Below are positions 2,968 through 41,339 of a DNA stretch of 56,560 bases, in pieces (the stretch's first letter is position 1; each line of letters opens with the position of its first letter). The notes under the pieces were generated by a model. The model made no database searches and had not been told where the DNA came from. It was given only the letters and a program-made list of their open reading frames with translations. The stretch comes from Acidimicrobiaceae bacterium (lineage in GTDB: Bacteria > Actinomycetota > Acidimicrobiia > Acidimicrobiales > RAAP-2), in assembly GCA_003132305.1 (NCBI GenBank), contig PKXJ01000013.1, positions 1 through 56,560 of the forward strand, read 5' to 3'. The position numbers and the translations under genes are program-made.

Positions 2968-5160
2968 TCAGCTGATCGTGCTCGCTGTCAACCCTCGCCT
3001 CAGCATGGCGGGAACTTCCTCTTTGGGAATGGCGGGCGACCAGAGGAAACCTTGGCCTAACTCACAGCCGAAGTTGCGCAGTCGCTCGAATTGTGCGGGC
3101 GTTTCTATTCCTTCGGCCAGCACGGTCATATTGAGCTTGAGTCCGAGTGAGACGATCGCTTCGAGCAGTGCGACGTTGAGAGAATTCTTCATCTTGGGGC
3201 TCACGAAGGACCGGTCAACTTTGATGATCTTGGGCTGCAAGAGTGCCAGATAGGAGAGCGAAGAGTACCCGGTGCCAAAGTCGTCGAGGGCAAAAGTTAT
3301 ACCGAAACGACCGAGCTGTTCCATGACGTTCATGGTCTCTGAAACGTTGTGGAGTGTCACACTTTCGGTAATCTCGATGACGAGTTGTTCTGGACTTAGC
3401 TCACTCTGCGCGAGCACGGATTCGATGATCGACACCAGGCCGGGGTCGTGAAACTGTCGTGCGGAAAGGTTGACCCCGATCGAGAGATCCTTGGTCTCCT
3501 CGCCCGACTGCTTCCACGAACTGGCCGCCGAGATGGCTTCTCGCAGGGCGAAGTAGCCCAGGTCCAAGATGAGATCGCTCTGCTCGGCGGCCGGGATGAA
3601 AACGTTCGGTGGCACCCATCCGCGCACGGGGTGTTGCCAACGCATCAGTGCCTCGAATCCGACGATCTCGAGCGTGTCAAGATCAACGATGGGTTGATAG
3701 TGCATCCTCAGATCACCGGACTGCAACGCTTGACGCAACTCTCGAACGAGTTCAAAGCGGTCGACCACTTGTTGGTGCATGCTCGGAGTGAAGAGCACGA
3801 AGCGCCCCTTGCCCTCGCGCTTGGCCTCGTACAAGGCGACGTCGGCGTTCCGAACGAGGTCGTTCATTTCGAATTTGGTTCCGTCCGAGACCGTGACACC
3901 AATGCTCGCCTGCTGCTCGACCCGGGTACCCGCGACCGAAAACGGTTCGACCAAGGCGTCGAGCAGGCGAGTCGCGGTGAGCTCCGCGTCTTTGGGTGAG
4001 TTCAGTCCTTCGGTTAAATAGAGGAACTCGTCACCACCGAATCGGCATAGGGTGTCCGTGGCGCGCGTGACGTGCTCCAAGCGGCGCGCCACCGCCTGGA
4101 GCAGTTGATCGCCCGCGAGGTGGCCGAATGAGTCGTTGACGCCCTTAAAGTCGTCAAGGTCCAAGAGGAGAACTGCGTACAGTCCGCCGTCTCGAGCGAT
4201 CTTGGCGCGCGCCTGTTCCAGTCGGTCAGTAAAGAGCGCGCGGTTCGAAAGTCCCGTCAAGGTGTCGTGCAGCGCCTGGTGAGAAAGCTCCGCGGCGAGG
4301 GTGCGTTCGTCGGTGATGTCGCGCTCGGAGATGACGTTGTAAAGGATCTGGCCGTCTTCGTCGCGCGCCGGTGACCTCGATACTTCGACGTAGATCAATC
4401 GTCCGTCCTTTCGCAGGTAACGCTTGACGTAACGCGACTGACCCTCTTCTCCTCGAAGAATGCGTCGGTGGGACGCTTCGGTGATTCCGATGTCCGCGGG
4501 GTGCGTGAACGGCGTCGAGTCCTTTCCCAGGACCTCTTCTCGGGAGAAGCCGATCATGTTGCAGAACGCGTCATTGGCGGCGAAGACCCGGTCGTCGAGA
4601 TCAGTGAAGACCATGGGTGCCATATTGTCCTCGAACGCCAGACGGAATCGCTCCTCGAGAACGTGCAACTGCTTGACGTAGTTGTTGTGTTCGGTGACGT
4701 CTCGTCCGTTGAGGATGATGCCGGCGACGGCAACGCTGGCGAGCGCGTTGGTTGAGACAAGTTCAATATCACGAACTTCTTCGTTGGCCGCGACGATTCT
4801 TACCGTGTCTCGTATCGACCCGCGAGGTGTTTGGAGTAGCTCCAGGAACTGGGTGGACACCCGTTCGACGTCATCGGGATGCAGGTACGCGAAGGCGTCG
4901 GTACCGATACTCTCCTCGAGCGAGATGCCGAACGTTGCCAGAGCCGCTGGATTCGCGTACTTGACGCTGCCTGATTTGTCGACGACCAATAGGAGGTCCA
5001 GCGAGTTCTGACCCACCTCTTCCAGTGCCGCAAAGCGTTCGGCGGTCGCTTCTTTCGACTTCGCTCCCTTGGACTTCGTCCGCGGGCTCTTCGGAGTCTT
5101 GTCGCGAGGAGACCCTTGAACTTTGGGAGACTTCTTGGGCTTGTCGGACGTCACGGACAC
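2968..5160 (-). CDS. PAS-PAS-GGDEF-EAL cyclic-di-GMP turnover protein
   Basis: The product is 730 aa and probably cytoplasmic, with no TM segment. After a basic Lys/Ser/Pro-rich N-terminus (residues 5-37) there are two PAS domains (about 47-160 and 170-290), a GGDEF domain (about 300-455) and an EAL domain (about 475-720). The diguanylate cyclase signature RFGGDEF is intact (GGDEF at 375-379), with an inhibitory I-site RATD exactly five residues before it. The phosphodiesterase side also looks intact: EAL at 502-504, VIEITES, DDFGTGYSSL and KVDRSFV. The protein could therefore both make and break c-di-GMP, with the PAS domains sensing a ligand, redox state or partner. The GTG start gives the complete basic leader but has no obvious ribosome site. 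The EAL remnant lies immediately downstream. Confidence 0.93.
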   Translation of the reverse strand: MSVTSDKPKKSPKVQGSPRDKTPKSPRTKSKGAKSKEATAERFAALEEVGQNSLDLLLVVDKSGSVKYANPAALATFGISLEESIGTDAFAYLHPDDVERVSTQFLELLQTPRGSIRDTVRIVAANEEVRDIELVSTNALASVAVAGIILNGRDVTEHNNYVKQLHVLEERFRLAFEDNMAPMVFTDLDDRVFAANDAFCNMIGFSREEVLGKDSTPFTHPADIGITEASHRRILRGEEGQSRYVKRYLRKDGRLIYVEVSRSPARDEDGQILYNVISERDITDERTLAAELSHQALHDTLTGLSNRALFTDRLEQARAKIARDGGLYAVLLLDLDDFKGVNDSFGHLAGDQLLQAVARRLEHVTRATDTLCRFGGDEFLYLTEGLNSPKDAELTATRLLDALVEPFSVAGTRVEQQASIGVTVSDGTKFEMNDLVRNADVALYEAKREGKGRFVLFTPSMHQQVVDRFELVRELRQALQSGDLRMHYQPIVDLDTLEIVGFEALMRWQHPVRGWVPPNVFIPAAEQSDLILDLGYFALREAISAASSWKQSGEETKDLSIGVNLSARQFHDPGLVSIIESVLAQSELSPEQLVIEITESVTLHNVSETMNVMEQLGRFGITFALDDFGTGYSSLSYLALLQPKIIKVDRSFVSPKMKNSLNVALLEAIVSLGLKLNMTVLAEGIETPAQFERLRNFGCELGQGFLWSPAIPKEEVPAMLRRGLTASTIS

Positions 5161-38342: not shown

Positions 38343-38744
38343 TTAGGCCGGTTGGGTCGAGATCCGATCGGGGTGAATCTTGACGGTGACGCGAATCTCG
38401 CCCTCGCGGCGCATGGGGTAGGAGTCGACGTTCAAGTACTTCTTCGCGAAGCGGTCGATCACCTCGTCGGCACCTTCGGTGGTAAAGACCACCACGGTCC
38501 CGCGCACGGCGATAACGGTGTAGGGGTCGTCCGGGTCGGTGAGCGACACCGCGACGCGCGCGTCGGCGGCGAGGTTGCGAGCCTTCGCTCGGCCGAGGGC
38601 GGTGTTGATCACGATGTCCTCACCCTCGAGCTCCACCCACACCGGCGTCACGTTCGGTGCGCCGTCCGCGTCAAGACTCGCGATGTGCGCGAGAACGTTC
38701 TTCGCGAAGATGGCCCGAGAGGCGGGGCTAAAGGTATCGGTCAT
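38343..38744 (-). CDS. PPOX-class putative F420-dependent oxidoreductase
   Basis: The product is 133 aa, a split-barrel flavin/deazaflavin-binding domain. LAHIASLDADGAPNVTPVWV near the N-terminus and ALGRAKARNLAADARVAVSL in the middle are typical of the actinobacterial F420-binding PPOX family; the FAKKYLNVDSYPMR segment agrees. It may reduce an unknown substrate with F420H2 or bind FMN; the cofactor is inferred from the family. ATG start. It converges with the unrecognised gene upstream. Confidence 0.85.
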   Translation of the reverse strand: MTDTFSPASRAIFAKNVLAHIASLDADGAPNVTPVWVELEGEDIVINTALGRAKARNLAADARVAVSLTDPDDPYTVIAVRGTVVVFTTEGADEVIDRFAKKYLNVDSYPMRREGEIRVTVKIHPDRISTQPA

Positions 38745-38790: not shown

Positions 38791-39942
38791 ATGAACATTG
38801 GTGCGCACGTCCGCGGCGGCGGCAAGCTCATTCCTTCCCTCGAAGCCGGAGTGGAGATTGGCGCTACCTCCATTCAAGTGTTCACCCAGAGTCCACGAAT
38901 GTGGAAGGCCTCGCAGTACGCGCCGGAGGTCTTGACCGCGTATCGAGAAGCGCAAGCGACGCATCCGACGATCACGGACACTTTTTGTCACGCGACGTAC
39001 CTCATTAACTTGGCCTCGGCCGATCTCGAGCTCTTCGAAAAGTCGGTCGAGTGTCTCACGCACAACCTCTCGGTCGCTCGGGGTATGGGCTCTTCGGGTC
39101 TAGTCTTGCACGTCGGATCTCATAAGGGTGCCGGGTTCGACGAGGTCGTTCGTCAAATCGCCGACGCGTTCGAACGTGCGCTCGCAGAAGCGGACCCTGC
39201 GCCCGAGGGCGTCGCCGACTGTCCCATACTCATCGAGAACGCGGCGGGTGCTGGTGGAACCGTCGGACGCTCGCTCGAAGAGATCCAGTTCTTAATCGAC
39301 GCCTGCAATGGCGACGATCGATTAGGCCTGTGCATCGACACCCAGCACCTCTGGGCGAGCGGCTTTGACTACTCCAGCGTCGCTGGCGCGGAGAAGCTCA
39401 TCAAGGAGATCGACAACCGCGTGGGGATGAGTCGTTTGCGTTGTTTTCACTTCAATGACTCCAAGATTGAACTTGGCGGGAACCGCGATCGCCACGCCAA
39501 TATCGGCGAAGGGACCATCGGCGCTAAGGGCCTCGCCCCACTGGTCGGTCACCCGAAGATTCGAAACCTGCCCTTGCTACTGGAGGTGCCGGGATCGGGA
39601 GAGGGTCCACGGGCCGAAGACGTCGTCGCGGCGAGAAAAGTCGTGGCGGCTGGCATCAAGCTCTACGACGGCGTCACTACGAGCGCGCCGTCAAAGAAGA
39701 CGCCATCGGCAAAGAAAATTGCGCCAGCGAAGAGGGCCGCGTCCACGAAAAAGTCGACTCCCGTGAAGAAGACCGCGAAGAAAACTACGAAGAAGACCGC
39801 GAAGAAAACTACGAAGAAGACCGCGAAGCAAACTACGAAGAAGACCGCGAAGAAAACTACGAAGAAAACTACGAAGAGAGCCGCGTCCGCGAAAAAGTCG
39901 ACTCCGGTGAAGAAGACCGCGAAGAAAACGAAGAAGAAGTAG
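38791..39942 (+). CDS. nfo: Endonuclease IV with long lysine-rich repeat tail
   Basis: The product is 383 aa. Residues 1-285 are a complete AP endonuclease IV TIM barrel with its zinc ligands: [89 protein letters not shown] and [11 protein letters not shown]. The last 95 or so residues form a Lys/Thr/Ala tail built from an 8-residue unit (KKTAKKTT) between two copies of [18 protein letters not shown]. Nfo normally ends at about 280-300 residues. The tail resembles histone H1/HupB-type DNA-binding tails and could tether the enzyme to DNA; that is inference. The ATG at 38791 begins exactly at the family MNIGAHV. fumC follows 8 bases later. Confidence 0.95.
39766..39873 (+). repeat. 24-bp tandem repeats encoding the Nfo tail
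   Basis: Four units of 24 bp (39766-39789, 39790-39813, 39814-39837 and 39838-39861, the third with AAA to CAA) plus a half unit to 39873 encode KKTAKKTT. Flanking copies of a segment of about 55 bp (39731-39785 and 39875-39929) lie 144 bp apart, i.e. six repeat units, suggesting growth by unequal recombination or slippage. Confidence 0.9.
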
Positions 39943-39950
39943 GGGAACTG

Positions 39951-41339
39951 ATGACGAACGTGCGCGTCGAGTCCGACTCCATGGGTTCCATTGAGGTTCC
40001 CGCCGATCACTACTGGGGGGCGCAGACTGAGCGCAGTCTGCACCACTTCGCGATCAGCGACGAAACCATGCCGACGGCCGTCATTCGCGCCTTTGGGATA
40101 TTGAAACTTGCTTCGGCGAGAGTAAATCACGAACTTGGCAAGCTCGACGCAGAGAAAGCCTCACTCATCGAGCGAGCCGCGAAAGAAATCGTTGACGGCA
40201 CGTTGGCGGGAGAGTTTCCGCTTCGAATCTGGCAGACCGGATCGGGCACCCAGACGAACATGAACGTCAACGAAGTGATTTCGAATCGCGCCATCGAATT
40301 CGCGGGTGGCGTTCTCGGCTCCAAAGTGCCCATTCACCCGAATGACGACGTGAACATGTCCCAGTCCTCGAACGACACCTTTCCAACGGCGATGCACGTC
40401 GCGGCGGTACTAGAGATCACCGATCGACTGGTGCCTTCAGTGACACGACTTCGTGACGCCCTTGATGAGAAGGCGAAGTCTTATGCCAACGTCACCAAGA
40501 TTGGTCGCACCCATCTCATGGACGCGGTGCCCCTCACGTTGGGCCAAGAGTTCTCGGGATACGTCGCGCAGCTCGACGCTGATCTCGATCGTCTTCGGCT
40601 CGTTCTCGCGGGTCTCTACGAACTCGCGGCCGGCGGCACTGCGGTAGGAACGGGCCTCAACACGCACCCCGAATTTGGCGAGCGCGTCGCGTCGGCGATC
40701 GCCGAGTTGACGGGTAAGCCCTTCGTGACCGCGCCGAACAAATTTGCCGCGCTCGCGGCGCACGACGCGCTGGTCTTCGCTCACGGAGCCATGAAGACGC
40801 TCGCGGCGAGTCTGACGAAGATTGCGGACGATCTTCGTTGGCTCGGTTCGGGGCCTCGCTCGGGTCTGGGTGAACTGCAACTTCCCGAAAACGAGCCCGG
40901 CAGCTCCATCATGCCGGGCAAGGTCAATCCCACGCAGTGCGAAGCGATGATCATGGTGGGTATACAGGTCTTTGGTAACGACACCGCCGTCGCCATCGGT
41001 GGTTCCCGAGGCAATCTCGAATTGAACGTATGCAAGCCGGTCATCATCTACAACTTCTGTAACTCCATAGATCTACTCAGCGACGCGTGCGACCGGTTTC
41101 GTGAGTTCTGTGTTGAAGGACTATTGCCGGACTATGAGCAGATTCAAAATCACCTCAACAGCTCGCTGATGCTGGTGACCGCGCTCAATCCAATAATTGG
41201 CTACGACAAAGCCGCGCAGGTCGCCAAGAAGGCGCACCAGGAGCGCTCGACGCTTCGCGAAGCGGCGCTCTCGTTGGGATTCTTAAGCGCGGAAGAGTTT
41301 GACGCCGCAGTCGTACCCGACGAGATGACGCATCCCTAA
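39951..41339 (+). CDS. fumC: Fumarate hydratase class II
   Basis: The product is 462 aa. [51 protein letters not shown] (catalytic His) and the superfamily signature [15 protein letters not shown] are intact. It interconverts fumarate and malate in the TCA cycle as a tetramer. ATG start 8 bases after nfo with GGGGAACTG upstream, so the two may share an mRNA. Confidence 0.97.

Follow-up and report, generated by a model that had tools for sequence, protein, structure and literature searches.

The endonuclease IV locus

The analysed stretch of DNA (the window, 56,560 nucleotides) is contig C34 of a 2.9 Mb source genome in 35 contigs. The closest named relatives of this genome among the collected genomes are "Acidimicrobiaceae bacterium" records assembled from metagenomes, whose names refer to palsa, fen, and bog. 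The window encodes an endonuclease IV (Nfo) of 383 amino acids, translated on the forward strand from an ATG at 38791 to a stop codon at 39940-39942, with the following features at the locus:

38343..38744, reverse strand: divergent gene upstream of nfo, pyridoxamine-phosphate-oxidase-like (open reading frame)
38791..39675, forward strand: Nfo catalytic core, residues 1-295 (TIGR00587, PF01261, structure relatives, AlphaFold model, ligand alignment)
39676..39939, forward strand: lysine-repeat C-terminal tail, residues 296-383 (translation, codon list)
39730..39783, forward strand: first copy of an 18-residue flanking segment (codon list)
39765..39877, forward strand: 24-bp tandem array in the tail, encoding KKTAKKTT units (Tandem Repeats Finder, 4.7 copies, 94% matches)
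39874..39927, forward strand: second copy of the 18-residue flanking segment (codon list)
39951..41339, forward strand: fumarase-like gene downstream of nfo (open reading frame, starting 8 bases after the nfo stop codon)

The downstream neighbor is presumably fumC, and the upstream divergent gene is taken by us to be pyridoxamine-phosphate-oxidase-like. A promoter and terminator scan gave nothing of use.

The catalytic core has the properties of a genuine endonuclease IV. The TIGR00587 (nfo) profile matches residues 3-274 with 229.1 bits against a cut-off of 129.65, and PF01261 is the sole domain match in the protein, while the four narrower NCBIfam equivalogs listed score below their cut-offs (e.g., NF002197, 214.9 of 376). 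Nine residues (H67, H107, E149, D183, H186, H220, D233, H235, and E265) are invariant in an alignment of 16 Nfo sequences, and these positions correspond to the nine ligands of the trinuclear metal site in Escherichia coli Nfo. In a sequence search of solved structures, the Thermotoga maritima endonuclease IV tops the 15 sequences listed, and the bacterial endonuclease IV chains matched have 258-307 residues. The AlphaFold model is confident in the core and adopts the endonuclease IV fold, with 4hno and 2x7v as the best Foldseek matches (TM-score by target of 0.91 and 0.90, respectively). A second PF01261 match in the source genome was rejected as a second Nfo because the TIGR00587 search gives one place in this genome. 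Likewise, Nfo is not the sole AP endonuclease, since two Xth-type AP endonucleases score over the cut-off in the source genome.

The tail consists of 88 amino acids, including 34 lysines and two arginines, with neither aspartate nor glutamate. A preliminary description of this DNA had reported a complete Nfo barrel with a lysine tail of about 95 residues; the architecture stands, whereas the length is corrected to the 88 residues counted here (296-383). The duplicated 18-residue segments that it placed on both sides of the repeats and the 24-bp DNA repeat encoding KKTAKKTT were both recovered at the coordinates listed above. In the AlphaFold model, pLDDT is below 50 at residues 296-323 and 325-383 with no helix or strand there, and the tail is predicted to be intrinsically disordered. 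The closest relative, with a core 95% identical to that of the window, has the end of the tail in common with the window Nfo and differs in the middle of the tail, as repeat expansion and contraction would give.

Distribution and length of the tails

A search of the family covered 172 genomes and found a match in 117, of which 109 were analyzed with one locus per genome (partial or split matches in G468, G475, G483, G484, G486, G510, G513, and G536 were left out of the Nfo set). The genus of the window contributes 68 Nfo rows, 61 with a complete C-terminus. Counted beyond core residue 292, the length in the genus ranges from 1 to 249 aa. At least 20 aa are present beyond the core in 40 of the 68 rows; six of these 40 are truncated where their contig stops. 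Tails of this length that contain 15% Lys or more are here called lysine-rich, and 36 of the 68 rows have one. The four remaining rows (L098, L175, L177, and L181) are below 15% Lys, with 9-14% Lys plus Arg. Fewer than 20 aa follow the core in 27 of the 61 complete rows, which indicates that the Nfo tail is dispensable. The comparison among related genomes proposed in the preliminary description was carried out at the species level and revealed strong variation in length between species.

Among the other genera of the family, at least 20 aa are found beyond the core in 11 of 41 Nfo rows, and Lys/Arg-rich tails are limited to the two rows of one sister genus (L188 and L189). The Nfo of another genus (L216, G477:C223:11744-12949) ends in an Arg-rich GARPRT repeat that runs off the contig. 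Outside the family, none of 90 phylum- and class-level Nfo loci has an extension of at least 15 aa at more than 15% Lys. This sample comprises 30 best-scoring loci and 50 fetched by place for the phylum and 10 fetched by place for the class (two of these 10 already belonged to an earlier set), and the fetched loci were picked mostly for long open frames. No lysine-rich tail was found in two further groups of Nfo loci outside the family (13 and 12 loci) or in distant matches, mostly from Chloroflexota (L057-L059, L061, and L063-L080, with L070 ending early). These negative results outside the clade cover the fetched loci, which are part of all Nfo matches. One Nfo outside the family (L116) has a 49-aa Arg/Pro-rich extension. 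The statement that Nfo normally ends after the barrel thus holds in the relatives sampled outside the clade, with a few non-lysine extensions, and the same relatives led us to reject the lysine tail as a common Nfo feature; tails shared by all Nfo proteins had been named as a possible refutation, and the 90 phylum and class loci argue against this.

In a quick tree of the 109 Nfo cores, the 36 lysine-rich rows fall within a single genus subclade of 53 rows (support 92, not starred), while L188 and L189 are placed beside the genus. The search for tailed homologues and their placement, as suggested earlier, puts the lysine-rich tails found in one subclade, in addition to the Lys/Arg tails of the sister genus. 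For the tree, a row counted as tailed if it had 20 aa or more, of which Lys made up at least 10% and Lys plus Arg at least 15% (41 rows); a minimum of eight changes between tail and no tail was then obtained, among which gain and loss are indistinguishable, with 32 of 106 inner branches open. The group with tailed Nfo belongs to the actinobacteria and is known from environmental samples, peat among them.

An assembly or frame artefact at the tail, which the preliminary description had named as a possible refutation, was assessed from the gene neighborhood. The comparison drew on 56 related loci whose core identity exceeds 58%. More than 1800 bases are available downstream in 45 of them, and the fumarase-like gene follows on the same strand in 44 of these 45 (the exception is L041). 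The upstream neighbor is present in 50 of the 56 loci, on the strand opposite to nfo in the rows listed. Between these fixed flanks, tails of widely differing length keep an open frame. Seven of the 68 genus rows run off the contig inside the tail, which shows that assemblers do break here; the exact repeat number in any single assembly may be wrong and needs care. On the other hand, many independent assemblies have tails in the same frame with the same neighbors, and the 36 lysine-rich genus rows carry theirs between conserved neighbors. An artefact is accordingly rejected as an explanation of the tail, being barely credible.

Composition of the tails

The 36 lysine-rich tails, when pooled (3262 residues), contain 29.7% Lys, 22.5% Ala, and 11.2% Thr, with Pro at a fraction of 0.09, while acidic residues amount to 2.6% (fractions of 0.014 for Glu and 0.012 for Asp). 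The median Lys content of the Nfo cores in the genus is 2.4%, and the lysine content of the genus tails exceeds chance composition by far. In individual rows, Lys ranges from 19 to 39% and Asp plus Glu reaches at most 6%. Net charge increases with tail length (Spearman 0.98, n = 34 complete rows), which is expected of any fixed composition. The 30 lysine-rich tails of at least 40 aa contain 923 Lys codons (798 AAG and 125 AAA), and codons one base away comprise 44 for Glu (GAR) and 50 for Arg (AGR), a comparison that is suggestive, as slippage copies are non-independent and linker residues are included. The G+C content is approximately 62% in the source genome (sampled) and 70% in a sampled tail-less member of the genus. 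The retention of charge while sequence and length vary suggests selection on composition, although copies arising from slippage are not independent.

The tail may instead be a tolerated, functionless by-product of repeat slippage at an unconstrained C-terminus. Its DNA is a tandem repeat, its length is unconstrained down to fewer than 20 aa in the 27 complete rows mentioned above, and at least eight changes of state occurred on the tree, all of which fit such an origin. However, the 36 lysine-rich rows hold their lysine and acidic contents within the above ranges in proteins whose core identity to the window Nfo goes down to 60%, and unconstrained sequence in a genome with a G+C content of about 62% should drift away from AAR codons. 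Moreover, lysine tails are also present on the glutamine synthetase (GlnII) and topoisomerase I (TopA) of the genus. A functionless tail is thus quite improbable in our judgment.

Other lysine-rich proteins in the genus

A search of the source genome with the window Nfo tail gave the C-terminal tail of topoisomerase I as the sole other sensible match (E = 0.0017); a match at L143 was set aside because its frame contains stops. A search with the tail of a relative covered 15 genomes with matches in 13, and the 30 loci read included, besides Nfo, an H1-like protein (~90 aa), a DksA-like protein, topoisomerase I, and GlnII, while L349, L350, L351, and L358 had no lysine-rich frame at the threshold used. 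Frames with 13 Lys in 40 residues were then counted in 656,560 of the 2,907,286 bases of the source genome, and six reach this density: Nfo (19), the H1-like protein (18), the DksA-like protein (15), GlnII (15), TopA (14), and a NYN-domain protein (13). In 400 kb of an outside genome, one frame reaches 13 Lys in 40 residues; in 200 kb of a genus member with a tail-less Nfo (G258), no frame does, and lysine-repeat proteins were matched elsewhere in G258.

The H1-like protein is a free protein of 86 aa composed almost only of Lys, Ala, Arg, and Pro (G000:C10:230231-230485, L338; L405:10222-10479). Its gene has a purine-rich ribosome-binding-like site before a GTG start, and the protein matches NF038053 (histone H1-like) weakly, below the cut-off. 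The DksA-like protein (L412:8373-9425, G000:C10; below NCBIfam cut-offs) has a long lysine-rich N-terminal region, which is also present in the relatives L336, L337, L339, and L356. The NYN-domain protein (L406:3148-4419, G000:C10) combines a NYN ribonuclease domain (PF11977) with an internal lysine-rich stretch, and a frame of the outside genome G038 (L438) starts like L406 and ends in a PAKK tail. Within the window, a sensor protein encoded at 2968-5160 on the reverse strand has a lysine-rich N-terminus with 10 Lys in 40 residues and presumably carries GGDEF and EAL parts. The HU protein found in the source genome ends without a lysine tail.

The GlnII of the source genome (G000:C16:11683-12678; L375, L414) has a 41-aa lysine-rich C-terminal tail with 15 Lys. 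Among the 30 GlnII loci read, all 17 genus loci with a complete C-terminus have a tail, 26-48 aa long and containing 6-19 Lys (four further genus loci run off the contig, G002 gave no match, and G015, with a split match, was left out). Outside the genus, eight of nine loci have a tail of 0-5 aa, and the tail of the ninth is 15 aa long, including 5 Lys. Compared with the Nfo tail (1-249 aa), that of GlnII is steadier in length, and in G021 it is present where Nfo is tail-less.

These observations raise the possibility that the Nfo tail is one case of a lineage-wide polycation tag that gathers unrelated proteins (Nfo, TopA, GlnII, the DksA-like protein, and the NYN-domain protein) on a shared polyanion, such as the nucleoid, RNA, or polyphosphate granules, with DNA repair not being its specific purpose. 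The GlnII tail makes a purpose in DNA repair one reading among others, as it occurs in all complete genus loci even where Nfo is tail-less and is absent or short in the loci read outside the genus, and the six lysine-dense frames belong to proteins of differing kinds. In addition, the KPAA-tailed protein AlgP is reported to associate with polyphosphate granules, and DNA binding is reported for a fragment of its tail (PMC9239181), which keeps a broader polyanion tag a candidate. Most of the six lysine-dense proteins are nucleic-acid proteins, however, which fits plain DNA or RNA binding, and the steady GlnII tails, as opposed to the variable Nfo tails, suggest that the ends served may differ. 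Furthermore, G437, a member of another genus with a tail-less Nfo, gave ten matches to the lysine tail of the relative, and lysine-repeat proteins as such are hence neither confined to the clade with tailed Nfo nor a peculiarity of it. Two of the G437 proteins, named by eye as HU-like (L344) and phasin-like (L335), have PAKK-type tails. We regard the tag as rather unlikely, if less so than a functionless tail. Marginally less probable than the tag in general is a version in which, within this genus, H1-like tails act as a general recruitment tag that brings Nfo (DNA repair), TopA (topology), GlnII (nitrogen assimilation), and the DksA-like (transcription) and NYN-type (RNA cleavage) proteins together on one polyanionic body (nucleoid or polyphosphate), with the Nfo length set in each species by slippage.

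A putative DNA-affinity tail on endonuclease IV

The explanation that we favor, and consider somewhat better than an even bet, is that the protein is a genuine endonuclease IV to which a lineage added a disordered polycation tail, which would provide non-specific DNA affinity, with its length free and its charge kept. One genus-level lineage of Acidimicrobiales would have added the lysine-rich, disordered C-terminal tail. The Nfo core, judging from its family membership, presumably finds and cuts abasic sites as other Nfo proteins do. By analogy with HupB and TopA, the tail may bind the DNA backbone as a flexible polycation without sequence preference, which would concentrate the enzyme locally at the nucleoid and slow its release. 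The observed composition and lengths are consistent with repeats that gain and lose copies through slippage or unequal exchange, which would leave tail length free while positive charge is kept. The most likely contribution of the tail is, in our analysis, electrostatic DNA affinity.

Three observations stand against this explanation. GlnII, which is not known as a DNA enzyme, is lysine-tailed in every complete genus locus, the two Xth-type AP endonucleases of the source genome mean that Nfo has company, and in the genus fewer than 20 aa follow the core in 27 of the 61 complete Nfo rows.

The genus offers naturally occurring versions of a single repair enzyme whose conserved core is followed by anything from 1 to 249 residues, and these could be used to measure how a charged, disordered tail affects the search for DNA damage. 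The tail of the genus glutamine synthetase raises the question of why a metabolic enzyme carries lysine repeats and offers a direct test case for polycation tails as location tags in bacteria.

Comparison with known tailed systems

No paper on a lysine tail on Nfo, and none on glutamine synthetase together with lysine repeats, was found in the open-access literature among the matches listed, which for Nfo were partly judged by title. The window Nfo has the whole catalytic core, the fold, and the metal-ligand positions in common with the endonuclease IV of T. maritima (2x7v, 4hno) and E. coli (1qtw), to which it adds the 88 predicted-disordered lysine-rich residues. Ku differs from Nfo in both repair pathway and fold. 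Mycobacterial Ku is, like Nfo, a DNA-repair protein with a lysine-rich stretch, a low-complexity region mentioned in two papers (PMC6821194; PMC7398561). The former surveys low-complexity regions in prokaryotes and counts those rich in lysine, as found in histone-like proteins, topoisomerases, and Ku, among the non-sequence-specific DNA binders (PMC6821194).

The Pseudomonas proteins AlgP and PhaF have a long Lys/Ala/Pro-rich tail that is described as predicted to be disordered and as a mutational hot spot (PMC9239181). Their KPAA repeats are tied to polyphosphate or PHA granules, and neither is a repair enzyme. Mycobacterial HupB, an HU protein with a PAKK/KAAK tail, has C-terminal basic repeats like those of the Nfo tail and without them no longer appears nucleoid-associated (PMC5676037). 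However, HupB is an architectural protein, the window Nfo has no HU domain (PF01261 being the sole match), and the HU of the source genome is encoded elsewhere and is tail-less.

Actinobacterial TopA likewise has C-terminal lysine repeats on a DNA enzyme, and such a TopA is also encoded in the source genome; the repeats reportedly make the enzyme processive and have been likened to histone H1 (PMC7398561). The catalytic domain of TopA is unrelated to Nfo, and the tail of the source-genome TopA ends in acidic residues. Lysine repeats are said to be common among actinobacterial TopA proteins, whereas the Nfo tail turned up in a single clade. The 36 pooled Nfo tails fit the HupB/TopA-type pattern of a Lys/Ala/Pro/Thr-rich repeat with few acidic residues, and the likeness to the DNA-binding tails of HupB and TopA that had been proposed for the window Nfo is supported by these sources (PMC5676037; PMC7398561). 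The lysine-tailed Nfo combines an enzyme family and a type of tail that are each already known.
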